64,000 bases of DNA from Desulfoplanes formicivorans (GTDB taxonomy: Bacteria > Desulfobacterota > Desulfovibrionia > Desulfovibrionales > Desulfomicrobiaceae): assembly GCF_001748225.1 (NCBI RefSeq), contig NZ_BDFE01000016.1:1-64000 (forward strand), read 5' to 3'. Under the pieces are notes generated by a model that was given only the letters and a program-made list of their open reading frames with translations, searched no databases and was not told the origin of the DNA. This document shows positions 581 to 54,287 of this stretch, in pieces. Within the stretch, counting starts at the first letter, position 1. Each line of letters starts with the position of its first letter. A program made the translations under genes and the position numbers.

Positions 581-745
581 ATCGAGTAGGGTGAAGCAGA
601 GTGATCAACTCTGCTTCACCCCTCTCACAGAACCGTGCGTACAGGCCTCGTACACGGCTCCTGTTCTATCTTATCCCCGATTTATAGGGGGGAAGCTCAC
701 CCGTACCCCTGTGTCAGGGAAGTTGTCGCCTCTTCTGAAATAATT
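581..745 (-). mobile_element. Group II intron 3'-end remnant (domains V and VI)
   Basis: Read on the minus strand, 660-630 forms a domain V hairpin starting GAGCCGTGTACGAGG with the AGC catalytic triad at its base. Positions 621-589 form a long domain VI hairpin (GGGTGAAGCAGAG against CTCTGCTTCACCC), and the element ends ...CTACTCGAT at 581. This arrangement is diagnostic of bacterial group II introns. The upstream part up to about 745 also looks intron-derived. The reverse transcriptase gene and the 5' domains are absent, so this is a dead remnant. It sits exactly where the att remnant at 541-580 breaks off. Confidence 0.75.
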
Positions 746-33505: not shown

Positions 33506-33994
33506 CTATTTCATGTTCACGAACTGAAACGGCTGCTCAAAGCCCCCTTCCCTGACCAGACTGATCACGGCCTGCAAATCATCGATCTTTTTGCCGGTCA
33601 CCCGGACCTGATTGTCCTGAATGGCGGCCTGGACCTTGAGTTTGGCTCCCTTGATCAACTTGACCAGTTTCTTGGCCGTTTCCTTGTCAATACCTTCCTT
33701 CAGGCGGACCTGCTGCTTGAGCTGCCCCTTGGACGTTCCTTCAGGTTCGCTGAAATCCATGATCCGTGGGTCAATCTTGCGCCGCACACAATGGGCACTG
33801 AGCATGTCCCGCAACGCCTTGATCTTCATCTCATCCCCGGTGAGGATGCTGATCCGCTTGTCCTTGCGATTAAAGGTGATTTCCGTGGTCACGCCCCGAA
33901 AATCATACCGGGAATCGATTTCTTTCTTCACGTTGTTGATGGCATTGTCCACTTCCTGCAAATCCACCTGGCTGACAATATCAAAAGACGGCAT
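33506..33994 (-). CDS. yajQ: YajQ family nucleotide-binding protein
   Basis: 162 residues, complete YajQ (two ferredoxin-like folds): [18 protein letters not shown] at the start, [18 protein letters not shown], and the C-terminal [20 protein letters not shown]. Members are reported to bind cyclic di-GMP or other nucleotides. ATG 33994 has AGGGAGG upstream. In a window rich in c-di-GMP components (GGDEF protein, riboswitch) a receptor role is plausible. Confidence 0.9.
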
Positions 33995-34185
33995 GTCTGT
34001 TTCCTCCCTATAGATAGCAATATTCTGCAATTATATCCTTACATCTAACGTCAACCCTGATCAGCACCAGGCCCTGCCTGGCCTGTTGATTGGCTCCCGG
34101 GCTGTGAAACAACCCTGCCAATGCCATCAGGGGGCACACTCGATCAGGCAGCGCGCAGCCTCATAACCGCAACCTGCCGAACACC

Positions 34186-35355: not shown

Positions 35356-36135
35356 TCATTTGTCGGCAAGGCCGCACAGCATGAACCCCAAAATGGGTTG
35401 ACATTTTTCCGTGCATGCCGGGTAGAACCTTCCATGCTTCTTGCTGCCCGAACGGTTTTCAAGTCCCCAATAAAATTCGGCAATACCCAAGGGAATCCAT
35501 TGATTGTGCACGGCATGGTTGAGCAATTTTGGGGCACAACAATCTCCGGTGCCCGTGGGCATGCCTCCAGGCCCCTCAAAAACATCCGCCATCAACCGCG
35601 TTTCTCCGCGAAAATTGGAAACCGTATACAATCCATGAATCTTTTTCATCAGGCCTTTTGAAAGGGCCCGACGCTTGTTCACCAGATCCCTGCGCAAGGG
35701 GTCATCATCCGAAAGCCCGGCAATGGTCCTGCCAAGTTCCTTGATGGTGCGTTCCACCGGTCTGCTGATCCGGTCCATTTCACTGGTATCCACAAGGGGA
35801 CCAACCCAGCCGTCCACATGCCATATGCCATTGTATTGACCGGAAAAAGCCTTGGCACAACCAACCTGTCCCCGATCATCCACATATTCCATGACCCCGA
35901 ACATCTGCCCCCGGGCCGGACCAAACAGATAATCTGTTGTCAGCCTCGGGTCAGCCTGCTTTGGGGGAACATGCCAGTCAATCCGTTTTGTTTGCTCCAG
36001 CTCGAGCATCAATCCCCGGCACAGGTCGCGGGCATGGCCCATGGGAAGAGTGTGTACCTGCTTGCAGCGTCTGCACCATCCATAGCACGACCCCAGACGG
36101 GTTGCATGCTCATTATTCGCTTGTTCCGGGCACAT
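35356..36135 (-). CDS. RluA-associated N-terminal-domain protein
   Basis: 259 residues of a domain otherwise found fused to RluA-type pseudouridine synthases: GTGDCCAPKLLNHAVH, PLGIAEFYWG, RFYPACTEKCQPILGFMLCG. The pseudouridine synthase part itself is not present. N-terminal Cys pairs (CYGWCRRCKQVH) could bind zinc. The start at ATG 36135 lies 23 bases inside the upstream GGDEF gene, so the two are translationally coupled. Function unknown. Confidence 0.65.
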   Translation of the reverse strand: MCPEQANNEHATRLGSCYGWCRRCKQVHTLPMGHARDLCRGLMLELEQTKRIDWHVPPKQADPRLTTDYLFGPARGQMFGVMEYVDDRGQVGCAKAFSGQYNGIWHVDGWVGPLVDTSEMDRISRPVERTIKELGRTIAGLSDDDPLRRDLVNKRRALSKGLMKKIHGLYTVSNFRGETRLMADVFEGPGGMPTGTGDCCAPKLLNHAVHNQWIPLGIAEFYWGLENRSGSKKHGRFYPACTEKCQPILGFMLCGLADK

Positions 36136-37357
36136 AGGCTTCCACTCGATTTCGTCCCTTTTCCTTGGCCATGTAGAGGGCCTGATCGGCCATGCTGACG
36201 AGCTGCTCATCGGAAAGAGCGTGTTTGTCGGGATAGGATGTTGCTACACCAAGACTCATGGTGACCACGCCCCCCTTGAGTTTTTCATGGGGTATTTCCA
36301 GGCCGAGAATGTTGTTCCGGATTTTTTCGGCCACAAAACAGCCTCCCTGAAGCGAGGTATTGGCAAGGATGGCAACAAATTCTTCACCACCATAACGTGC
36401 ACAAAAATCTCCCGGGCGATCAAGACTCTGCTGAAACGCATGGGCAACCTTTTTGAGACACTCGTCACCTTCCCGGTGCCCATAGGAATCATTGTACCAT
36501 TTGAAATGATCCACGTCTCCCATGATCACCGTAAGGGGAGTCTGCTCCCTTTGACTGCGATCGCATTCGTTTTGCAGCCGTTCCATTAAACTGCGGCGGT
36601 TGGATATGCCGGTCAGGCCATCTGTATGAGACTGCTGTTTGATGGATGCATAGGCATGTTCCAGCCGGCCACCCAGTAAAACAATACCGAGCAAACCGAC
36701 CAGCCAGATGCTCACATGCCCTATCTGCAAGGCAACAAGGGAAATCTTCGGGACAAAGGGCAGGGTCACACTGATGCCACCGCGTATATCTCCCTGCGCA
36801 TAGCCCTGCTTGGCATGACAGGACAAACAGGACTTTTCCGTACGCAGCGCCCCCATGTAAAAAAAAGAACGATGGCCGTCTTGCACCATGACCCGACCGA
36901 TCTCCCGGGTTCCGTTATCAAACAGCACAAGGCCCTCCCGCTCCAAAGGGGTCGGCCGATTTTCGGGCCGTAACGGATTCAGGCTGGTAATATGGAAGCG
37001 AACCCATTTTTCCTGCTCGGACAAGGTGGAAATCTCTCTGGTCATGAATGCAGGATTGAGCTTGGTCAACGTCAAGGTCGCATTGAAGTGCAGATCACGA
37101 TGAGGATCTTCAAGATATATGTTGGGGCGGGTAGACTCGGTCACGGGCACATAGACGCCGTTATGCAGAGCGTTCCACCGTCTTGTGATCAGGATCTGAT
37201 CAAAAAAGCTCCGGGCCGTTTGCAACGCCAGCCGGAACTCCACCTTCCTGGCACTGTGATAGCTGAACAGAAACGAAGCTCCAATAAAACAGGACCAGAT
37301 GAGAGCAACGAGGACAATCCGCCTGGACACCATGCATGCTTGAAAATATGTGATCAT
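36113..37357 (-). CDS. Membrane diguanylate cyclase with haem-binding sensor
   Basis: 414 residues. A membrane helix at 13-34 and another near 210-230 enclose a periplasmic domain of the Tll0287/DUF3365 type, with a c-type haem motif CLSCH at 177-181. The C-terminal GGDEF domain (DGLTGISNRRSLMERL, RYGGEEFVAILAN) synthesises c-di-GMP; the active site GGEEF is complete. Redox or gas sensing through the haem is inferred. The 3' end overlaps the next gene by 23 bases. Confidence 0.88.
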   Translation of the reverse strand: MITYFQACMVSRRIVLVALIWSCFIGASFLFSYHSARKVEFRLALQTARSFFDQILITRRWNALHNGVYVPVTESTRPNIYLEDPHRDLHFNATLTLTKLNPAFMTREISTLSEQEKWVRFHITSLNPLRPENRPTPLEREGLVLFDNGTREIGRVMVQDGHRSFFYMGALRTEKSCLSCHAKQGYAQGDIRGGISVTLPFVPKISLVALQIGHVSIWLVGLLGIVLLGGRLEHAYASIKQQSHTDGLTGISNRRSLMERLQNECDRSQREQTPLTVIMGDVDHFKWYNDSYGHREGDECLKKVAHAFQQSLDRPGDFCARYGGEEFVAILANTSLQGGCFVAEKIRNNILGLEIPHEKLKGGVVTMSLGVATSYPDKHALSDEQLVSMADQALYMAKEKGRNRVEAYVPGTSE

Positions 37358-43374: not shown

Positions 43375-43836
43375 ATAACGACAATGTTGTGTTGAGGGGT
43401 TGGTATGATGGCCCCGTGAAGCCGTGCTTCACGCTACGCCTGCCTGGATGCCTTCACAATGCTCTTTAAAAGCATAAAACATACCACAACCCATCCAAGA
43501 TTATCTGACTTGTCGTTCATTTGAACCTGTTTTGTGCACCATTCTATTCACTTACAGAACATGTGCACCATCTGTGGCAAGGTGTTCCACACGGCGACAC
43601 AACAGGATGTCATGCGGTATGACAACACCCGATCTCATCAATGCGATAAAATCAGGTACGTTCCTTGCTCTCACATACATTATCTACTATAGTTTGCATC
43701 ATCTTTTATGCGCGGTTCGATGCGAATTTTTCCGGACCATTCTTGTACCGTTTGCATGACAATGTTGCTGTCAGGATGTAACAGAGTCCAAAACCATGCA
43801 TGTCCTTTCACCCTCAGAACACAAGGAGTTGTCACC
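43375..43836. other. Intergenic region between regulator and EPS export gene
   Basis: About 460 bases. It contains a small GTGAAGC..GCTTCAC hairpin (43415-43431) and two direct copies of TGTGCACCAT (43533-43542 and 43562-43571), possible regulator sites. No convincing sigma-54 -24/-12 pair was found. Confidence 0.4.
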
Positions 43837-44403
43837 ATGTTCGTCCTTCGCCCGCTTCTCGCCAGTCTCTTCATTTGTCTGTTCTGCCTGCCCGTGCACG
43901 GCATGGCCCAGACCCTGCCAACCTTTGTACTCGGTCCCGAAGATGTTCTGGATATCTCCGTATGGAGGGATGAAACCCTCAGCAGAAAGGTCATGATCAT
44001 GCCCGACGGCAAATTCTCCTTTCCCCTTATCGGCGATATCCAGGCCAGCGGCCACACGGTAAGCGAAGTCCGGGACATGATTCAGGAAAAAATCAAAAAA
44101 TTCGTCCCTGATGCACCCGTGAGCGTGGTCATGGATGAAATCAAAAGTCCCAAGGTGTACATTGTGGGCAAGGTCAACAAGCAGGGCACCTTTGTCATGG
44201 AAGGAACACCCTTGAGCGTTGTGCAGCTCATTGCTCTTTCGGGTGGGCTGACTCCTTTTGCCGAAGGAGACGACATCCACGTGCTGAGGGAAGTCAACGG
44301 CAAACAAACCGCCATTCCCGTGGATTATGAAAAAATCATCCAAGGCAAGGACCTTGAGTCCAATATCGTTCTCAAACCCGGTGATACCGTGGTTGTTCCC
44401 TGA
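43837..44403 (+). CDS. Polysaccharide export protein (Wza-like)
   Basis: 188 residues: Sec signal (MFVLRPLLASLFICLFCLPVHG), then the polysaccharide export domain (LGPEDVLDISVWRDETLSRK, MPDGKFSFPLIGDIQASG) and one SLBB domain (KVYIVGKVNKQGTF, LIALSGGLTPFA). It lacks the Wza C-terminal membrane helix, matching the short exporters of exosortase-type EPS loci. The start is set by AAGGAG ten bases upstream. First gene of a plus-strand cluster of five. Confidence 0.88.
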   Translation: MFVLRPLLASLFICLFCLPVHGMAQTLPTFVLGPEDVLDISVWRDETLSRKVMIMPDGKFSFPLIGDIQASGHTVSEVRDMIQEKIKKFVPDAPVSVVMDEIKSPKVYIVGKVNKQGTFVMEGTPLSVVQLIALSGGLTPFAEGDDIHVLREVNGKQTAIPVDYEKIIQGKDLESNIVLKPGDTVVVP

Positions 44404-44423
44404 TGCACCAGGAAGAGGCCCAG

Positions 44424-44468
44424 ACCGTGTTGCATGGACAAACAACACCTTTGTCCATGCAACACGGT
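44424..44468. repeat. 19-bp inverted repeat in the EPS cluster
   Basis: ACCGTGTTGCATGGACAAA and its complement flank a seven-base loop, starting 20 bases after the export gene. There is no T-run. It could be an attenuator, an mRNA-stabilising hairpin or a dispersed repeat. Confidence 0.6.
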
Positions 44469-44640
44469 AAATAACAGGACAACAACCAATAATTCAATTA
44501 CCGCATCACAAAAAGCATGTCTGATTGATGTGCTGTACATACAACAAGAATATTTCAAACCTTAAAATCTATACTTTTTTACAGGCAGTTATTCGACCAA
44601 TGCAATTCATTTGCAAATATCGTTAAAAAAAGGTTTTGCC

Positions 44641-45900
44641 ATGAAAAATAAAATTGCACTCTACCTATTTGTTATTGCAGGCATTCAGCTTCTTTCCAAT
44701 CCTTCATTTGCTCTTAAATATAAACTTGTGCCCTCTATAGGAGTAAAAGAAACGTATGACACAAAAGTTGGATACACGGATGAAGACGATTTCATCCATT
44801 CAATCATTTCAGGACTTGTCTATGATGCTGAAACAATGACTTCAAAAGTTCATTTCAGCGGCATTCTCGATTATTCATGGTATAACAAAGAAAGTGAATA
44901 TGATGGTTTTGACCAGACATACGATCTCAACCTTTTTCATGATTTTTCTGAACGTTTTTCATTCGGAATGAGAAACAATTTTATTTATGATGCCAATTCA
45001 AAACGTTCTTTTGAAGAAACAGGTGAAGATCTTCATAGTGTGGACCGCATCATGTATGGTGTATCCCCCTATTTCACCTTTGATATTGATGAGCGCACCA
45101 GGTCACGCATAAGCTACAAAGTGAAAGGGTCCGACTACCAGGGATACAGCCATGATGACACCTATAGTGACAGCATGGTCCACAGCTTTGGGGCCAGTGT
45201 TGAACGTGATCTGACGGAATTGTTTACCATGGGCATTGCTGCCAGTGCGGACCTCCGCTCCTATGAAAAGGAGGAAGGGGAAAATCATTACGACCATTAC
45301 AAGCTTTCCCTTTTGAGCAAATACCGCTTTTCGGAACGAACCAAACTCAGGTTCAGTGTCTCCACAGATCAGTTTTATGAAAACGAGGTCAATGACGACA
45401 GTGATACGACCCGATCCGTCAATGTGTCTGCCGGAGCGAACTACGCGGTCAACGAGCATTGCGGCCTTGATGTGTTCATTGGCACGGGCGACCAGACCAC
45501 TTTTGATGAAAGCGGCACCCTGGGATTTGATCTGACCTGGAAGGAAGAAACCTGGAATGTTGCCGGAGGATACAAAAAGGATGTCACGTCCGGGGCACGC
45601 GGGTATGACCTGAATCGTGACCGGGTCCACCTTACAGCCGAATATCTTGCAAGTGAACGTTTGCTGTATGGCGTTCAAGGCGTCTATGTCTACTCTGATC
45701 AGACAGACACGGATGACAATGACGATGAAAGGTACACCTATTATGGCATGGAACCATATTTGCAGTATGAAATAATCAAAAATTCCTTCATAAAAGCAGG
45801 ATACAGTTATGGTGTCTATACGGACAGGGATGCTGATCGCGACATAACCAGAAACAAGGTCTACGTCATGTACACAATGACCTTTCCGTATGAGAAATAA
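44641..45900 (+). CDS. Outer-membrane beta-barrel protein of EPS locus
   Basis: 419 residues with a signal peptide (about residues 1-24, ending NPSFA) and alternating amphipathic strands rich in Tyr and Asp through the C-terminus, ending in an aromatic-rich strand (KVYVMYTMTFPYEK). The overall pattern matches the outer-membrane protein of exosortase-associated EPS loci (TIGR03016-like). Codon usage at its 5' end is more AT-rich than its neighbours. It probably forms the outer-membrane pore or anchor for the exported polysaccharide. Confidence 0.75.
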   Translation: MKNKIALYLFVIAGIQLLSNPSFALKYKLVPSIGVKETYDTKVGYTDEDDFIHSIISGLVYDAETMTSKVHFSGILDYSWYNKESEYDGFDQTYDLNLFHDFSERFSFGMRNNFIYDANSKRSFEETGEDLHSVDRIMYGVSPYFTFDIDERTRSRISYKVKGSDYQGYSHDDTYSDSMVHSFGASVERDLTELFTMGIAASADLRSYEKEEGENHYDHYKLSLLSKYRFSERTKLRFSVSTDQFYENEVNDDSDTTRSVNVSAGANYAVNEHCGLDVFIGTGDQTTFDESGTLGFDLTWKEETWNVAGGYKKDVTSGARGYDLNRDRVHLTAEYLASERLLYGVQGVYVYSDQTDTDDNDDERYTYYGMEPYLQYEIIKNSFIKAGYSYGVYTDRDADRDITRNKVYVMYTMTFPYEK

Positions 45901-45939
45901 ATCACGTCAACTGAATTTCAATACAAAAATGGTGATGCC

Positions 45940-47652
45940 ATGCAGGATAACATGCACAGTTTCAAAAAAGTTTTTAAAAGAAGAAAGTGGTACTTTATCA
46001 TTCCCCTATGCAGCATCATCATTATTTCCATCTTCATAGCCTTTGTCATTCCACCCAAATACACATCAAAGGCAACCATTCTTATTGAAACGCAAGTGGT
46101 TCCTGAAGATCTTGTCCGGTCCACCATCACGGGGCTCATTGAAGCACGACTGCACAGTCTGTCCCAACGTGTTCTCAGTGTTCCCAATCTGTCCAAAATC
46201 ATTGACCAATATGGATTGTACGAAAACATTCGTGCGAACCATACCAATCAGGAACTGGTGGAAAAACTTCGTCAAAGCATCGAGTTGACCCCCATTACCA
46301 CCCAGTGGGGCAAGAGAAGTGACCAGCTTGCCACCACGGCCTTTGAAATCGGATTCACTGGGCGTGATCCCCAAACGGTTGCCAAGGTCACCAGCAAGCT
46401 GACCTCGATATTTCTCGAAGCCAACGTGCATGACAGGGAGGCCAAGGCCCAGACAACAGTGGACTTTCTAACCAAGCAACAGCAATCCCTGCGCATGGAA
46501 ATAGCGGAAAAGGAACAAGCCATTGCCGCTTTCAAAAACAAGCATCCATCTGAACTGCCCGAAATGATTCAAAGTAATCGCAACACCATGGAAAGACTGG
46601 CGCAGCAGATCGAACTCAAGGAGAGTGAACTGCGACGGATCACGGACCACAAGGCTCTTCTTGAGGGGCAGTTGGCAACCATTGATCCCTACATCTTTGA
46701 CAATGCATCAGACACGGATGTTGCAACGCTCAAGCGTCGTTATACAGCGCTCAAGGCGACCCTTTCAGAGAACCATCCCGATATGCTCATCCTCAAAAAC
46801 AAGATTGCCGCCCTGGAGCATGACTCAACAGGGTACGACAACCGGCCCGACCTCCAGGCAGAATTGCAGGAATTGCAGGCTCAAAAGGTCATCCTGGAAA
46901 AACAGTATTCCAGCCTGCACCCCGATCTGATCGCCCTGAACAAAAAGATCAAGACACTCAAGGAGCAACTGGCCCTTCCTCAGGAATCCGTTACCCCGTC
47001 ACAAGCACCCAAACTCCGGCCCAACAACCCGGTGTATCTGAACACGGCCCACCAAATTCAGAAAATCGCCATTGATATCAGGGAAACCAAAAAAGATCTC
47101 CGGGACCTGAAAAAAAATTATGCGCTGTACGCCAAACGAGTGGAAAACACCCCCAGGATCGAACAGGAATACAAAGCGCTCATGCGGGGTTATGCCAACG
47201 CGCAACAACAATTCGAGACCATTTCGGCACGACTCATGGTCGCCCAACAGGCTCTCATGCTTGAAGAGGACCGGATGGCCGAAAAAATGACCATCATTTC
47301 TCCTCCTTTTGTTCCGGAAAAGCCTTCAAGCCCCAACAGGCTGGCGATTCTGTTCCTGGGATGCGCCCTGGCCTTTGCAGGGGGACTGGCCATGGTGGCC
47401 GTGGCGGAAAACCTTGATCACAGCGTGCATGATGCCCACGAGCTTGCGGAACTGGCTGGTCAGCCTGTCATGGCCGTCATTCCCGTAATAGCCACCTCAC
47501 GGGAAAAGATGTTCAGGAAAATGAAGATGTTTGCGATCCCATCGGGAATCATCCTGACTGTTGTTGCCGGCCTGCTTGTCGTCCACCTGTTCTATCGGCC
47601 CCTCAATGTGCTCTGGATCCAGTTGAGTCACAAGTTCAATATCATGTTCTAG
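45940..47652 (+). CDS. Polysaccharide chain-length regulator (Wzz/GNVR type)
   Basis: 570 residues. A Wzz N-terminus with membrane helix (WYFIIPLCSIIIISIFIAFV), a long periplasmic coiled coil (residues 160-440), then a C-terminal GNVR-like part (FVPEKPSSPNRLAILFLGCA) with further membrane helices near 455-475 and 520-545. It controls chain length together with the tyrosine kinase encoded downstream, as in XrtA-type EPS loci. Confidence 0.85.
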   Translation: MQDNMHSFKKVFKRRKWYFIIPLCSIIIISIFIAFVIPPKYTSKATILIETQVVPEDLVRSTITGLIEARLHSLSQRVLSVPNLSKIIDQYGLYENIRANHTNQELVEKLRQSIELTPITTQWGKRSDQLATTAFEIGFTGRDPQTVAKVTSKLTSIFLEANVHDREAKAQTTVDFLTKQQQSLRMEIAEKEQAIAAFKNKHPSELPEMIQSNRNTMERLAQQIELKESELRRITDHKALLEGQLATIDPYIFDNASDTDVATLKRRYTALKATLSENHPDMLILKNKIAALEHDSTGYDNRPDLQAELQELQAQKVILEKQYSSLHPDLIALNKKIKTLKEQLALPQESVTPSQAPKLRPNNPVYLNTAHQIQKIAIDIRETKKDLRDLKKNYALYAKRVENTPRIEQEYKALMRGYANAQQQFETISARLMVAQQALMLEEDRMAEKMTIISPPFVPEKPSSPNRLAILFLGCALAFAGGLAMVAVAENLDHSVHDAHELAELAGQPVMAVIPVIATSREKMFRKMKMFAIPSGIILTVVAGLLVVHLFYRPLNVLWIQLSHKFNIMF

Positions 47653-47864
47653 AAGGCGATGGTATGAGGTTCGTATCGCCGTTTCCACCATGCCGGTACA
47701 CATTGCGCCCGCCTGCAACGCCTGCGCGCCGCATTGCAAAGAAGACAGGAAGCGATTGGCACCCGTAGCACCTCGTAACCCGAAGCCTCAAACCGTCGCA
47801 CAAACAGGCTGCGCAGGCCCAGCATTTGAGAACAAGATCCGTACCTTCAACCCCCGAGATACCC

Positions 47865-48653
47865 ATGAGCAAAATCGCAAAGGCCCTTGAAAAAGCCCAC
47901 CAGAATCAGACATCATCCGAATTTCTCAACGCTTCGGCGTACCAGGACAAGGCCCCTTCCATTCAACAAAAACCCATTGTCTATACGAAGACCCGAATCC
48001 ATTCCCTGTCATCACGTGATCTGGAAAAATTCAGGATCATGACCGCCATTGAGGACCCGGACATCACGGATTATTATAGTCTGCTTCGTACGCAGGTCAT
48101 GTCGCGAACCCGGGGACGCAATCAGAATGCGCTCATGGTCACCAGTTCCATACCTCGCGAAGGCAAAACCACAACGGCCATCAACCTGGCATTGAGCATT
48201 GCCCGCCATGCCGTGCAGACCTCCCTGCTCGTGGATATGGATCTTCGCAATCCGGACATCAGCACCTATCTGGGGCTTGATCAACGCCATGGACTTACCG
48301 ACTACCTGATCAACGACATCTCACTGGACACCCTTCTGGTTCACCCCGAGGGCATGGAAAACATCGTTGTCCTGCCGGCAGGAAAACGCAGCAGGGAATC
48401 CACGGAACTGCTCAGCGCGCCGAAAATGAACTCATTGGTGCATGAGCTCAAGACAAGATATACCGACCGGTACGTCATTTTCGATTGTCCTTCACTGGTG
48501 AACAACCCCGATGCCCTCCTCTTTTCATCGTACGTAGACGCGATCATTCTTGTGGTGGAAGAGGGAAACGCCTCCAAGGACAAAATCAAAAAGGCCCTGG
48601 AAATGCTCAATGGGAAGGACGTTGTCGGCCTGGTCATGAACAAGGCTTCCTAG
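47865..48653 (+). CDS. Exopolysaccharide tyrosine autokinase (CpsD/CapB)
   Basis: 262-residue BY-kinase: Walker A SSIPREGKTTTAINLAL, Walker A' LLVDMDLRNPD and Walker B region YVIFDCPSL. The C-terminal Tyr cluster used for autophosphorylation is not evident. It partners the chain-length protein encoded 212 bases upstream. ATG 47865 is supported only by a weak GAG, so a slightly different start is possible. Confidence 0.85.
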   Translation: MSKIAKALEKAHQNQTSSEFLNASAYQDKAPSIQQKPIVYTKTRIHSLSSRDLEKFRIMTAIEDPDITDYYSLLRTQVMSRTRGRNQNALMVTSSIPREGKTTTAINLALSIARHAVQTSLLVDMDLRNPDISTYLGLDQRHGLTDYLINDISLDTLLVHPEGMENIVVLPAGKRSRESTELLSAPKMNSLVHELKTRYTDRYVIFDCPSLVNNPDALLFSSYVDAIILVVEEGNASKDKIKKALEMLNGKDVVGLVMNKAS

Positions 48654-48668
48654 CCTTGGGGACTGCAC

Positions 48669-49982
48669 ATGTATAAGGATTTCTACGGGCTCACCGCCAA
48701 ACCTTTCAGTATCGTTCCCAATCCGGACTGTCTGTACATGACGTCAAAACATCAGTTGGCGCTCACGTATCTCCAGTATGGCATTTCGGAAAATCTGGGA
48801 TTCATCCTGCTTACCGGTGAGATTGGAACGGGCAAGACCACCCTTATCCGGCACATCCTCCGTCAAATCGACATGAACATGGAAGTGGCGGTCATTTTCA
48901 ACACCCAGATATCGGGCAATCAGCTCATCGAAATGATTCTGTCGGAATTCGAGCTGCCCCATGAAGCGAATGACAAATCCAAAAATCTTGATATACTGAA
49001 TGATTTTCTCATCGAGAAATACGCACAAAACCGCAAGGTTGTCATTGTCATTGATGAGGCCCAAAATCTTTCCATGGAAGTCCTTGAAGAGGTTCGCATG
49101 CTCTCCAACCTGCAAAGCGAATCCAACATGCTCTTGCAGATCATGCTTGTGGGCCAACCCGAGCTCAAGGCAAAAATCAAGCGTCCCGAACTAGCCCAAC
49201 TGACCCAGCGCATTGCCGTCAACTATCATCTTGGTCCCCTTTCTCGCGAGGAAGTGGGCAACTACATTGCCTTCAGGCTTGACAAGGCCGGCGGCAACCC
49301 CAACCTGTTCACCCCTCAAGCCGTTGATCTGATTCACGAATTTTCCGGGGGCATTCCCCGCGCCATCAATCTTCTTTGTGACGCAGCCCTGGTCTACGGA
49401 TTTGCCGATGAACTGACTTCCATTGAACCCGCGATCATTGAACAGGTAGCTGCGGACAAGCAGGGAATAGGGATCAATTCTGTTGCCACCCCTGGCGAAC
49501 CAGCCCCCCCGAATTCTCTTGCCAAAGACCAGGATGCCAGCGCATTGCTGCAGCGCATAGCCACTCTAGAACGAACAGTGGAAAAACTTTCCCTGCAGGT
49601 GCAATGGCAAATGCAGGAGCTGGAGAACAGGGCAACCTCTTTTCAGGACAAACTGATAACCACCCTCAAGGAACAATTGAAGCTGGAACGGGAAAAGGCT
49701 GATGCGTCTCAAATCCAGTACACCAGAATCAAGGAAACCTATCTGGCCCTGAAACGCACGATCCAGGCATCCCGAAAACAGGATACCCAACCGACCCCTG
49801 TGATACAGGCATCACTGGACAAGCCCAGCCCTGTGAGCCTGCCCCACCATGACCCGGCACCTCCCGACGACCCTGAAGACGACAACCGACCTCACAAACC
49901 CGCTGTCTGGAAACTGAGCATGAGCTGTGCCAGCCTTTTTGTCATCATCCTTGCCGGTATTGTTCTGTATCGAACCTGCTGA
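48669..49982 (+). CDS. EPS-locus AAA ATPase (ExeA/XrtA-associated type)
   Basis: 437 residues. An AAA/ExeA-like ATPase occupies 1-270 (Walker A GEIGTGKT at 50-57, Walker B VVIVIDEAQN, FSGGIPRAINLLCDAAL). A coiled coil and Pro-rich linker lead to a C-terminal membrane helix (SCASLFVIILAGIVLYRT). This layout matches the ATPases of exosortase-linked EPS loci (TIGR03015-like). It probably drives secretion or regulates sugar polymerisation. It starts 15 bases after the kinase gene. Confidence 0.85.
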   Translation: MYKDFYGLTAKPFSIVPNPDCLYMTSKHQLALTYLQYGISENLGFILLTGEIGTGKTTLIRHILRQIDMNMEVAVIFNTQISGNQLIEMILSEFELPHEANDKSKNLDILNDFLIEKYAQNRKVVIVIDEAQNLSMEVLEEVRMLSNLQSESNMLLQIMLVGQPELKAKIKRPELAQLTQRIAVNYHLGPLSREEVGNYIAFRLDKAGGNPNLFTPQAVDLIHEFSGGIPRAINLLCDAALVYGFADELTSIEPAIIEQVAADKQGIGINSVATPGEPAPPNSLAKDQDASALLQRIATLERTVEKLSLQVQWQMQELENRATSFQDKLITTLKEQLKLEREKADASQIQYTRIKETYLALKRTIQASRKQDTQPTPVIQASLDKPSPVSLPHHDPAPPDDPEDDNRPHKPAVWKLSMSCASLFVIILAGIVLYRTC

Positions 49983-49996
49983 CACCTTCCTTTTGA

Positions 49997-51388
49997 TCAC
50001 CGATGTCTCGGCCATGATCGGTGCGTGATCCCGAACTTCTTGATCTTGTAATTGAGGGCCCGCGGACTCACCCCCAGCCGCTCGGCTGCCTTTTTCTGAA
50101 CCCACCCGTTTTGCTCAAGGGCATCAAGAATAACCTCCCGCTCCAAATCCTTGAGCGTGGGGACAGATTCCTGCTGTTTAACGTCGGCACTGGAGTGCTG
50201 CATCCTCGTGACCCCAAGGGCATTTTTTTCCGAAAGTACGATATTTTGCATACGAATATGATCCGTATCCTCCAAAATGGCCGCGCGTTCGATCACATTC
50301 TTCAACTGGCGCAGATTCCCGGGCCAGGGATAGGCAAGAAAGGCATCCAGAACATCAGGAGCAAATCCAACAATCTTTTTTTTCAAGTCGCGCACTATCT
50401 TGTCCAGCATGTATTGGGCAAGAGGAACAATACAATCCTTTCTCTCCCGCAGGGGCGGCAGATGGATGCGCAAAACATTCAACCTGTAATACAAGTCCTG
50501 GCGAAAGGAACCATGGTGTATCAAATCTTCCAACTCACGGTTGGTTGCTGCTATGATCCTGACATCCGAAACAATGGTTCGGTTCCCCCCGAGACGTTCA
50601 AAACTTTTCTCCTCAAGCACACGAAGCAGCTTGGCTTGCAACGAGGGAACCATTTCCCCAATTTCGTCCAGAAAAACTGTACCCCCGTTTCCCTGCTCCA
50701 GCCGCCCAACGCGCACCTTGTCAGCTCCGGTAAATGCTCCGCGTTCATGACCGAACAATTCGCTTTCCAGCAACGTTTCCGGGATGTTGGCACAATTGAT
50801 GGTAATGAATGACTTGGTCCGGCGCCCGCTGTTGAAATGCACCAAACCAGACAAAAAACTTTTGCCGGTTCCGGTTTCCCCGGTCATGAGAATGGTTGCG
50901 TCTGTTGCGGCAAATTTTTTAAGGGTGGCCATCACCTCGCGCATGACCGCGCTTTCAGCAATTATCTTATTGAAATCGTATACAAATCCCTGGTCATGCC
51001 TTAAATAGTCAATCTCGTCTCGAAGCTGACGGTGCTCAATGGCCCTGGAAAACACCAATCTGATTTTTTCACCCGAGGTGGGCAGGACAATGCAATCAAA
51101 GACACCTTTCTTCACGGCATTGACAATGGTTTCTGCCTCCAGGTGAGTACCAAAAATGATCACAGGGGTATGGACCAACTGGGATTGAACCTCCTGCAGG
51201 ATCTTCTGGTCCTCAGCATGCTGCTCGTCAAAACAAATGAGAACAATATCATAGCCTCGGTTTTTCAAGGCCTTGAAGCAGGCATCAACCGATTCCGGAT
51301 AATCCAGTTCATGATCCTTGCCTGCATGCTGACGCAAAAAGGATTCATGACGCTGTAATGGATCTATGACTAGAATTCTTCCCATCAC
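49997..51388 (-). CDS. PrsR-like sigma-54 activator with degenerate receiver
   Basis: 463 residues. The N-terminal receiver-like domain has Cys52 where the phospho-acceptor Asp should be (DIVLICFDEQ) and only one of the usual acidic residues (VIDP), so phosphorylation is unlikely. The AAA+ part is complete (GETGTGKSFLSGL, GAFTGADKVRVG, GGTVFLDEIGEM) with a Fis-type HTH (KKAAERLGVSPRALNYKIK). It converges with the EPS ATPase gene, the position PrsR holds in exosortase loci. It probably activates EPS genes with sigma-54. Confidence 0.85.
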   Translation of the reverse strand: MMGRILVIDPLQRHESFLRQHAGKDHELDYPESVDACFKALKNRGYDIVLICFDEQHAEDQKILQEVQSQLVHTPVIIFGTHLEAETIVNAVKKGVFDCIVLPTSGEKIRLVFSRAIEHRQLRDEIDYLRHDQGFVYDFNKIIAESAVMREVMATLKKFAATDATILMTGETGTGKSFLSGLVHFNSGRRTKSFITINCANIPETLLESELFGHERGAFTGADKVRVGRLEQGNGGTVFLDEIGEMVPSLQAKLLRVLEEKSFERLGGNRTIVSDVRIIAATNRELEDLIHHGSFRQDLYYRLNVLRIHLPPLRERKDCIVPLAQYMLDKIVRDLKKKIVGFAPDVLDAFLAYPWPGNLRQLKNVIERAAILEDTDHIRMQNIVLSEKNALGVTRMQHSSADVKQQESVPTLKDLEREVILDALEQNGWVQKKAAERLGVSPRALNYKIKKFGITHRSWPRHR

Positions 51389-52116
51389 TCCTCACTCGTT
51401 ATGTGTCCTGTTTCACCCCCCACTCACCCATCTTCTGCCCTTTCCAGATATGATGACTGTGAACAAAAACTAGGCAGACCATGGCATGGTCATCCGGGTG
51501 TTCGGTGCACAACAGGTTGTTAACGACCATGATTGCTGACAAATGCTATCATGCTCTTGCAGACTGGTACATCAAGCAAAACATAAAAAAACCATGAAAC
51601 AGCGTATTTTTCAAACTCATTGAAAACGTCATCTTTCCCTCTTGTAATCCATGCAATTATCGGGCGCATGCGTCTTTTTTTCCTGTTCGCTCAGCATGCC
51701 ACAAATCACTGGATGCAGCTCATGACCGAGGGACAACAGAGGATACGGCCAGCTTATTCCCGAATTTCCCATAACACGCTCGCGGGGAACATCCAGTCCA
51801 TGCTGCGGCACTATCTGAGCACGTCTGAAACATACTTCGGATACAGGCATACAGACAAGAATTTCATCAAAAACAAAATCATTTCAATATGTTCTTCACA
51901 ATGATTGCCGAACATGGCTGCTGCAACCAAGGATTTACCGATTGTCTTACATATTAGTAAGCGATTATGGTAATAGTTCCCCCGACTTTTCCATGATGTC
52001 TTATTGGGACGATGCGGGACGCATGAAAAAACCCTTCATGGTTACAGTCAATTATCCTACAAAAAGCCGACAAAAAAAGTCTAACCGGTCCGGTTGGACC
52101 ACGGCTTGCTTATGCC
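51389..52116. other. Gap upstream of the riboswitch
   Basis: About 730 bases. A 94-codon frame at 51620-51904 has no family resemblance or ribosome binding site and is not credited. The region presumably contains the promoter of the lectin gene. Confidence 0.45.
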
Positions 52117-52212
52117 TCCCCCAGACAAAGGCAAACCATTTGAAAAAATGGGACGCAAAGCTACCGCCTACGTTCATCATGAACAAGGCAGTGGGGCTGC
52201 CGGGGATGGTCA
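52117..52212 (+). promoter_or_regulatory. c-di-GMP-I riboswitch (GEMM)
   Basis: The conserved core is clear: GGCAAACC, P1b hairpin CCATTTGAAAAAATGG, GGGACGCAAAGCTACCGCC and the tetraloop-receptor side GGCAGTGGGGCTGCCGGGG. This order and spacing is that of class I c-di-GMP riboswitches. The gene it precedes (52269) starts 57 bases further on, so c-di-GMP should control its translation or transcription. Confidence 0.85.
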
Positions 52213-52268
52213 GACAAACGATGACACGCTGCATCTCCCGGTGCAACCATCATGAGGAGGAGGCAGCC

Positions 52269-54287
52269 ATGCCATTACAACGAACACCCAGCCTGATCTT
52301 GATTTGTTTTCTAGCCGTTTTTGTTGTTCATGCAATGCCCGCACGAGCAACCGCGGTAACCATTAGCTGGAACGCCAATAGCGATAAGAACCTGAATGGT
52401 TATCGCGTTCATTACGGAACCAAAAGCCGTGACTATCAATACATCGAAGATGTTGGCAACATCACCAGATACGTTACGGACGACCTTCAGGAAGGAGAAA
52501 CCTATTTTTTTGCGGCCACGGCCTATGACCTCTATGGAAATGAAAGTGATTATTCCCAAGAGGTCAGCTATACGGTGCCCACGACAGATACCCCGACACC
52601 TGATCCGGAGCCGGTCTCCCAGGGCCGGTTACGCATGGAAACCGGTGAGGTGGACGTGGATCACAACTGGACCACCGTGGAACTGAGCCAGACCTTTTCC
52701 GATCCCATAGTCATTGCCAACCTCATGGGCTTTGTGGGAAGCGATCCTTCGGTCATCCGCATACGCAATGTCAGCCCCTCGGGATTTCAGATTCGCGTTC
52801 AGGAATGGGATTACCTCGACGGTATCCACAAAACGGAAACCATCGGGTTTGTAGTGGTGGAACGTGGTCTCCATACCCTTGATGACGGAACCATGATTCG
52901 GGCCGACAGTTTCAGAACCAACCGGACAACTTCCTTTGAAAACGTCCAATTCGGCACTGAATTTTCCACGGTTCCCGTGGTGGTCACCAGCATTGCCACG
53001 GTTGAAGATGAGGCAGGTGTAGCCGGAAGAATGAAAAACATTTCCACCAAGGGATTCCAGTACAAGATGCAGGAAGAAGAAAATGCTGACCAGGTGCATG
53101 CTGCGGAAACCGTCATGTACATTGCCTGGGAAGAATCCCAGGGGCAATGCGGTGATATTGCCTTTGAGGTCAAAAATTCACATCAATTGTTTGGCAATGG
53201 GTTTCAGACCCAATATCTGGACACCCAATTCACATCATCTCCCGTGTTTGTAGCCGAGATGCAGACCTGTTCTGGAAGCAACCCTTCTACATTGAGATAT
53301 ACCGACAAAACCATCAACAGAATCGATATCCAAGTCGTTGAAGAACAATCCAAAGACAGCGAAATGGATCATTACAACGAATGTATCGGCTATCTGGCCT
53401 TTACCGCTGGTTCTGCCACCATTCAGGACTCTGACAATGGCGGCCAGGAACCCTCTGATCCCCCGACCGATCCGGATGACTCCCAGCAGGAGCCCGGCAC
53501 TGCCATGAATATTGAATTGGGTGAGGTCTCCGTGGATCATGAATGGACAACCATCACATTTGACAAGACCTACACTGATCCCGTTGTTATTGCCTCTGGC
53601 ATATCCTATGCTGGCTATCACCCTTCGGTCATCAGAATCCGAAACCTCACAACACGTGGTTGCGAAATCATGGTTCAGGAATGGGATTATCTGGATGGCA
53701 CTCACACGACCGAAACCATTGGATATATCGTCGCAGAAAAGGGAACCCACGTGCTTGCCGATGGAACCATGATCAGTGCGGGAAGCACCCAGGTTCGGGT
53801 CACCAACGCATTTGTCCCCGTTACCTTTGACAAAGCCCTGACAACCGCACCCGTTGTGCTTACGTGTATTACATCAACGAACGACAATGCGGCTGTTATC
53901 ACACGGATGCAGAACATTACGGCAACAGGATTTGAAACAAGCATCCAGGAACAGGAAAAGAGCGATCAAAACCATGGCACGGAAACCGTTTCCTACATCG
54001 CGTGGGAGCCTTCCGCTGGCGTTATTGACCAGCAGGCATTCCAGGTAGGAACGACAGGATCTGCCATTGACAGCGCCTTTTCCACCGTTACCTTTGATGC
54101 CCCCTTTGACCGCACTCCGGCCCTTATGGCTGCCATGCAGACCATGCATGGCGACAATCCGTCCGGTGTGCGTTACGACAAGCTCACAACCAAAACCGTG
54201 AAAATGATGATTGAGGAAGAACAGTCAGCAGATACGGAAATGGATCACCTTGATGAAAATGTCGGGTATATCGTCTTTGAAAAATAG
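52269..54287 (+). CDS. Secreted FN3 and H-type-lectin-like repeat protein
   Basis: 672 residues, signal peptide ending at about residue 34 (FLAVFVVHAMPARATA). FN3 domain at about 35-110 (ITISWNANSDKNLNGYRVHY type). Then two tandem units of about 260 residues, each with a lectin-like sheet (GEVDVDHNWTTVELSQTF, VQEWDYLDGIHKTETIGF and the near-identical GEVSVDHEWTTITFDKTY, VQEWDYLDGTHTTETIGY) and a second related sheet. H-type lectins bind GalNAc-like sugars; binding the locally exported polysaccharide is a reasonable guess. Strong GGAGGAGG precedes ATG 52269. Under control of the c-di-GMP-I riboswitch. Confidence 0.8.
   Translation: MPLQRTPSLILICFLAVFVVHAMPARATAVTISWNANSDKNLNGYRVHYGTKSRDYQYIEDVGNITRYVTDDLQEGETYFFAATAYDLYGNESDYSQEVSYTVPTTDTPTPDPEPVSQGRLRMETGEVDVDHNWTTVELSQTFSDPIVIANLMGFVGSDPSVIRIRNVSPSGFQIRVQEWDYLDGIHKTETIGFVVVERGLHTLDDGTMIRADSFRTNRTTSFENVQFGTEFSTVPVVVTSIATVEDEAGVAGRMKNISTKGFQYKMQEEENADQVHAAETVMYIAWEESQGQCGDIAFEVKNSHQLFGNGFQTQYLDTQFTSSPVFVAEMQTCSGSNPSTLRYTDKTINRIDIQVVEEQSKDSEMDHYNECIGYLAFTAGSATIQDSDNGGQEPSDPPTDPDDSQQEPGTAMNIELGEVSVDHEWTTITFDKTYTDPVVIASGISYAGYHPSVIRIRNLTTRGCEIMVQEWDYLDGTHTTETIGYIVAEKGTHVLADGTMISAGSTQVRVTNAFVPVTFDKALTTAPVVLTCITSTNDNAAVITRMQNITATGFETSIQEQEKSDQNHGTETVSYIAWEPSAGVIDQQAFQVGTTGSAIDSAFSTVTFDAPFDRTPALMAAMQTMHGDNPSGVRYDKLTTKTVKMMIEEEQSADTEMDHLDENVGYIVFEK

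Follow-up and report, generated by a model that had tools for sequence, protein, structure and literature searches.

The window analysed here, a stretch of 64,000 nucleotides, carries a c-di-GMP-I (GEMM-I) riboswitch ahead of a gene for a secreted protein built of H-type-lectin-like units, and the two probably belong to a conserved cassette: a sigma-54 activator and promoter, the GEMM-I aptamer, a leader gating the Shine-Dalgarno (SD) sequence as an OFF switch, and a secreted triple-H-lectin. The riboswitch class and the lectin fold are already known; it is their conserved combination that looks undescribed. The open-access literature searched yielded neither a report connecting GEMM-I with H-type lectins nor any description of the recurrent sigma-54/GEMM-I/SD-lock/triple-lectin unit. 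A large family of secreted lectin-like proteins, so far uncharacterised, is linked here to c-di-GMP and sigma-54 by sequences from many genomes, which opens its regulation and its likely role, in attachment or matrix, to direct testing.

The original prediction had placed a GEMM-I core upstream of a lectin-like gene and proposed a covariance search as the check. The Rfam model RF01051 does match positions 52120-52204 (+) over its full length (1-87), at 72.4 bits against a gathering threshold of 35 (E 2.9e-12), the top-scoring of three GEMM-I matches in this 3.0-Mb genome (G000). The ligand-contact nucleotides can be read off as G20 (52130), A47 (52157) and C92 (52200), and there is a GAAA tetraloop at 52142-52145. 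That the aptamer is a functionless relic or a chance match is hardly credible: its core is intact, it is kept in a congener (G001), and it recurs in many genomes at constrained spacing. With other RF01051 riboswitches it has in common the aptamer score, P2 and P3, the core nucleotides, a surface or adhesion target and a leader acting on the SD; a target combining signal peptide, FN3 and triple H-lectin, a sigma-54 promoter close to the aptamer edge and a conserved anti-aptamer/SD-lock leader were not found described for the class in the same open-access literature.

The G20 of the window aptamer indicates c-di-GMP as the ligand; in Gmet_0970, an A20-to-G change switches preference from cGAMP to c-di-GMP (PMC6456294). 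That a single base can flip the preference, together with the A20 found in the lectin switches of G001 (L031 4651-4743) and of G186 (L150 5942-6034), could be taken to mean that the window RNA senses 3',3'-cGAMP instead, a very unlikely reading given its own G20 and the lack of any Hypr-type GGDEF (cGAMP-type, Ser replacing Asp) among those read in G000, G001 and G186; on these two grounds cGAMP was rejected as the window ligand. Asp is present in every GGDEF motif readable in the three genomes, several degenerate copies being unreadable. The Geobacter GEMM-Ib cGAMP riboswitches, with pilus, cytochrome and polysaccharide targets (PMC6456294), have a related aptamer of the A20 type, from which the window differs in its G20 and in a genome where no Hypr GGDEF was found. 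Among the switches first read, 30 of 31 have G20, and the excess of A20 among lectin switches falls short of significance (p 0.08); the G001 genome is incomplete, and its A20 could be an assembly error. If real, an A20/G20 pair within a single genus would offer a natural experiment on the evolution of ligand choice in GEMM-I.

The gene downstream encodes a protein of 672 aa (52269..54287, +), starting at ATG 52269 behind the SD sequence GGAGGAGG (52256..52263, +). A start at 51942, that of the longest, mechanically called ORF, was dismissed because the reading frame from there would run through the aptamer. A Sec-type signal peptide is predicted by eye at about aa 1-27 (52269..52349, +), and Pfam places an FN3 domain at aa 20-99 (52326..52565, +; fn3, 3.3e-6). 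On the whole protein, Pfam H_lectin (PF09458) scores 7.4e-19 (68.1 against 24 bits), with only two stretches reported. An FN3 domain and two H-type-lectin-like units had been predicted; the domain types stand, while the count does not, since unit comparison finds six, in the order a, b, c, a, b, c, as two copies of an a-b-c triplet. The first module (52623..53414, +) comprises units 1a (52623-52868), 1b (52869-53144) and 1c (53145-53414), and the second (53505..54284, +) units 2a (53505-53744), 2b (53745-54020) and 2c (54021-54284). Units of the same type are 56% (a), 48% (b) and 36% (c) identical, against 16-32% between types.

An AlphaFold2 model of the second, 263-aa module reaches pLDDT 84 and pTM 0.86; the full-length model is poor (pLDDT 70, pTM 0.44) and was excluded from use. 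In Foldseek, single units of the predicted model match 2ce6, 2ccv, 4q56 and 4mtm at probabilities of 0.98-0.99 (E 0.2-0.4), and the single-unit matches are to Helix pomatia agglutinin, the AP22 tail fibre and R-pyocin tail fibre tips (probability 0.97-0.99, with E-values of only 0.2-0.5); the whole module resembles a viral protein (TM 0.81, again for the predicted model). The alignment to a PDB sequence is weak (E 0.23). By Pfam, profile and Foldseek, the protein as modelled has an H-type lectin fold, and the signal peptide and this fold together suggest that it is exported and glycan-binding. The H-type lectins and the tail fibre tips of the R-pyocin foot and AP22 gp53 have the same single-unit fold; the tips are trimers of such domains contributed by separate chains (PMC6363177), whereas in the window family a single chain carries three fused units, which make up a recurring module of 260 aa. 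The genome also contains, at about 130.8-137.6 kb of contig C16 (L030 4792-11649), a 2,285-codon ORF in which a GDSL/SGNH hydrolase is followed by six triple-H-lectin modules with TSP3-like spacers; this ORF is without a riboswitch and has a counterpart in G001 (L032).

Is the pairing of riboswitch and lectin an accident of one genome? It is not, because the congener keeps it and its recurrence across the phylum far exceeds chance, and the regulatory link originally proposed holds up in this respect. The G001 ortholog is 56% identical, lies in a matching gene order and has its own GEMM-I. A profile of the triplet module matches 22 of 395 genomes of the phylum, and in 7 of 20 module-bearing regions a GEMM-I in the same orientation lies directly 5' of the lectin gene; a rough chance expectation for this first region set is 0.014, ignoring kinship, with three of the seven coming from one family. 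In a held-out set, 16 of 32 further regions carry the riboswitch ahead of the lectin gene. Altogether, there are 24 loci in which a same-strand GEMM-I immediately precedes an ORF combining signal peptide, FN3 and lectin module. The module is present in 24 of 25 ORFs downstream of GEMM-I (the 25th, in G574, is apparently frame-broken), and nearly all 25 begin as exported FN3-type proteins; in G788 the start codon chosen probably lies too far downstream. No GEMM-I other than the lectin switch was found in G137, G204 or G326, and the riboswitch is missing from about half of the lectin loci.

The leader between aptamer and gene is short, the gap to the start codon being 58-68 nt in 20 of the 25 loci, and folding predicts two structures that share one of its strands. 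One is a hairpin sequestering the SD, in which GCUGC-AU-CUCC (52228-52238) pairs with GGAG..GCAGC (52256-52267; whole feature 52228..52267, +); the congener has ACUGC/GCAGU, a compensatory end pair. The other is an anti-aptamer helix (52199-52208 with 52232-52242; 52199..52242, +), which competes for the 5' strand of the SD hairpin and is incompatible with the ligand-bound aptamer: it sequesters C92 and C93, predicted to pair with 52240-52241. Equivalents of this helix are predicted in G001 and in the eight-sequence consensus of a distant family, where the consensus fold likewise joins C92 and C93 to the leader. The SD sequestor beats shuffled sequences (p<0.05) in 19 of 24 loci, with a combined p of about 1e-16; with dinucleotide shuffles the combined p, for the first eight loci, is about 1e-6. 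An alignment of 23 leaders was too divergent for covariation, and a single-family subset of eight sequences was used instead, in which four pairs of the SD-locking helix and three of a competing hairpin show compensatory changes.

The switch would most plausibly be a translational OFF switch, a direction favoured because, across 23 loci, blocking the C92 strand in silico never increased SD access; predicted access fell in eight and stayed unchanged in 15. In the window alone, modelled SD access hardly changes (0.40-0.43 in the free state against 0.38-0.40 in the bound state), so the direction is put forward only as a prediction. The activation by c-di-GMP implied in the original prediction becomes doubtful on the same leader folding. 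c-di-GMP usually promotes attachment, as with adhesins in many biofilm bacteria, which counts toward the opposite, rather unlikely reading that the same cassette is an ON switch in which c-di-GMP opens the SD and lectin output rises. GEMM-I ON switches do exist, for example that of pilM with cGAMP (PMC9262584), and should transcription begin upstream of 52114, a CCUCC at 52115-52119 would also pair with the SD, sequestering it when no ligand is bound. This strand, however, lies upstream of the predicted transcription start and is not exactly conserved in the congener, and withholding the C92 strand never opened the SD in the 23 leaders. If the OFF direction is correct, a glycan-binding protein would be withdrawn as c-di-GMP rises, the opposite of the usual rule.

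Transcription may itself be a regulated step. A sigma-54 promoter-like element, TGGACCACGGCTTGCT (52095..52110, +; GG-N10-GC, with TTGC at -12), scores 19.5 of 22.5 (shuffle p 0.01 or less); the GG-N10-GC pattern by itself is not rare within the window (5 matches, 1.88 expected). The element ends 10 bases 5' of the aptamer, and the predicted transcription start is therefore at about 52121, among the first aptamer bases. G001 has a like element at equal distance from its aptamer, and one is found within 150 nt upstream (shuffle p<0.05) in 21 of the 24 linked loci having upstream sequence; several riboswitch-free lectin genes carry one as well. A divergent gene for a sigma-54 activator (49997..51388, -; receiver-like, AAA and Fis HTH domains by Pfam) is the candidate regulator of this promoter: its G001 ortholog adjoins the lectin gene, as does such an activator gene in six genomes overall (G000, G001, G137, G204, G326 and G421), and we infer that the lectin promoter is its target.

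Assuming an OFF switch, the parts could work together as follows: the local activator would drive the sigma-54 promoter, giving a transcript that begins at the edge of the GEMM-I aptamer, and the aptamer would control SD access through the short leader of about 65 nt. Without c-di-GMP, the 3' strand of the aptamer (C92C93GGGG) would pair with the leader and remove the anti-SD strand, so that the ribosome site could stay open; once c-di-GMP binds, C92 and P1 would be engaged, the anti-SD strand would close on the SD, and translation would drop. The lectin modules of the exported protein would bind glycan, and the cell would present a glycan-binding protein on its surface or in its matrix according to both the c-di-GMP level and a sigma-54 signal, next to type IV pili that have sister riboswitches of their own. 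What computation shows is the aptamer, its linkage to the lectin gene, the recurrence of the pairing, the sigma-54 motif, the SD sequestor and the fold; the ligand, the OFF direction, the activator's target, glycan binding and the place of the protein are inferred. A bolder and more doubtful extension is a phylum-wide dual-input family, with sigma-54 starts at or near GEMM-I and a bound state that locks the SD and turns off a secreted, single-chain triple-H-lectin, whose A20 members (G001, G186) have shifted toward cGAMP or dual sensing; if true, orthologous riboswitches of different ligand would exist within one genus.

The sister riboswitches, which like the sigma-54 promoter and its neighboring activator were absent from the original prediction, are the two further GEMM-I matches in this genome, the first ahead of a type IV pilin gene (L005 8385-8465, C15:472384) and the second ahead of an operon of minor pilins (L004 12823-12897, C16:76823) encoding a GspH/FimT-type protein, more N-methyl pseudopilins, PilX and a large protein resembling PilY1. 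Both score best on RF03167 (c-di-GMP-I-GGC), in distinction to the RF01051 lectin switch; they differ by having a C21-G46 pair, and they were not set apart as a distinct ligand class because A47 is retained. The same promoter comparison found no sigma-54 element at the pilA and fimT switches, and the pilA leader carries an apparent intrinsic terminator. Among other genomes, G028 has four tandem GEMM-I aptamers ahead of a single secreted protein gene (L046, C105:30424-30775), and G457 has a second GEMM-I controlling a gene whose exported product is FN3/cadherin-like and contains a glucuronyl-epimerase-type sandwich and no H-lectin unit (L221 1609-3418).

The neighborhood originally described is also real: a diguanylate cyclase joining a Tll0287-like domain (CxxCH, the presumed haem link) to a GGDEF domain with GGEEF and RxxD (36113..37357, -), YajQ (DUF520; 33506..34030, -), and a set of exopolysaccharide (EPS) export genes of XrtA/PEP-CTERM type (Wza-like, outer membrane protein, Wzz-like, tyrosine kinase and ATPase; 43708..49982, +). 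The export gene set resembles that of XrtA/PEP-CTERM EPS loci; of the models for that system the ATPase alone exceeds its cut-off (325.5 against 324.5), the others falling below theirs, and no PEP-CTERM signal was seen at the lectin C-terminus. Binding of the cell's own EPS by an adhesin, as originally proposed, is possible, and the congener keeps the XrtA-type ATPase gene in synteny; synteny of EPS genes and lectin is confined to the two congeners. A target among foreign or partner glycans, in attachment, co-aggregation or as a phage decoy and unrelated to the cell's own EPS, is a substantial possibility, if short of probable, and would fit either switch direction: at the other loci with neighbors examined, no EPS export genes were seen next to the lectin gene (G108 has polysaccharide-type genes), and among solved structures the nearest folds are those of snail agglutinins and of phage or pyocin tail fibre tips, the pyocin members of which bind foreign LPS (PMC6363177). 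Relatives combine the module with TSP3, cadherin-like/Big or MopE-like repeats or with malectin domains, contexts that would suit a glycan-binding surface or matrix protein. In one family a beta-helix protein gene lies directly 3' of the lectin gene and is probably cotranscribed with it (L157 3375-4826, L158 346-1776). Near the start of the window, at 581-662 (-), there is also a match to a group II intron domain (RF00029, 44.4 bits).
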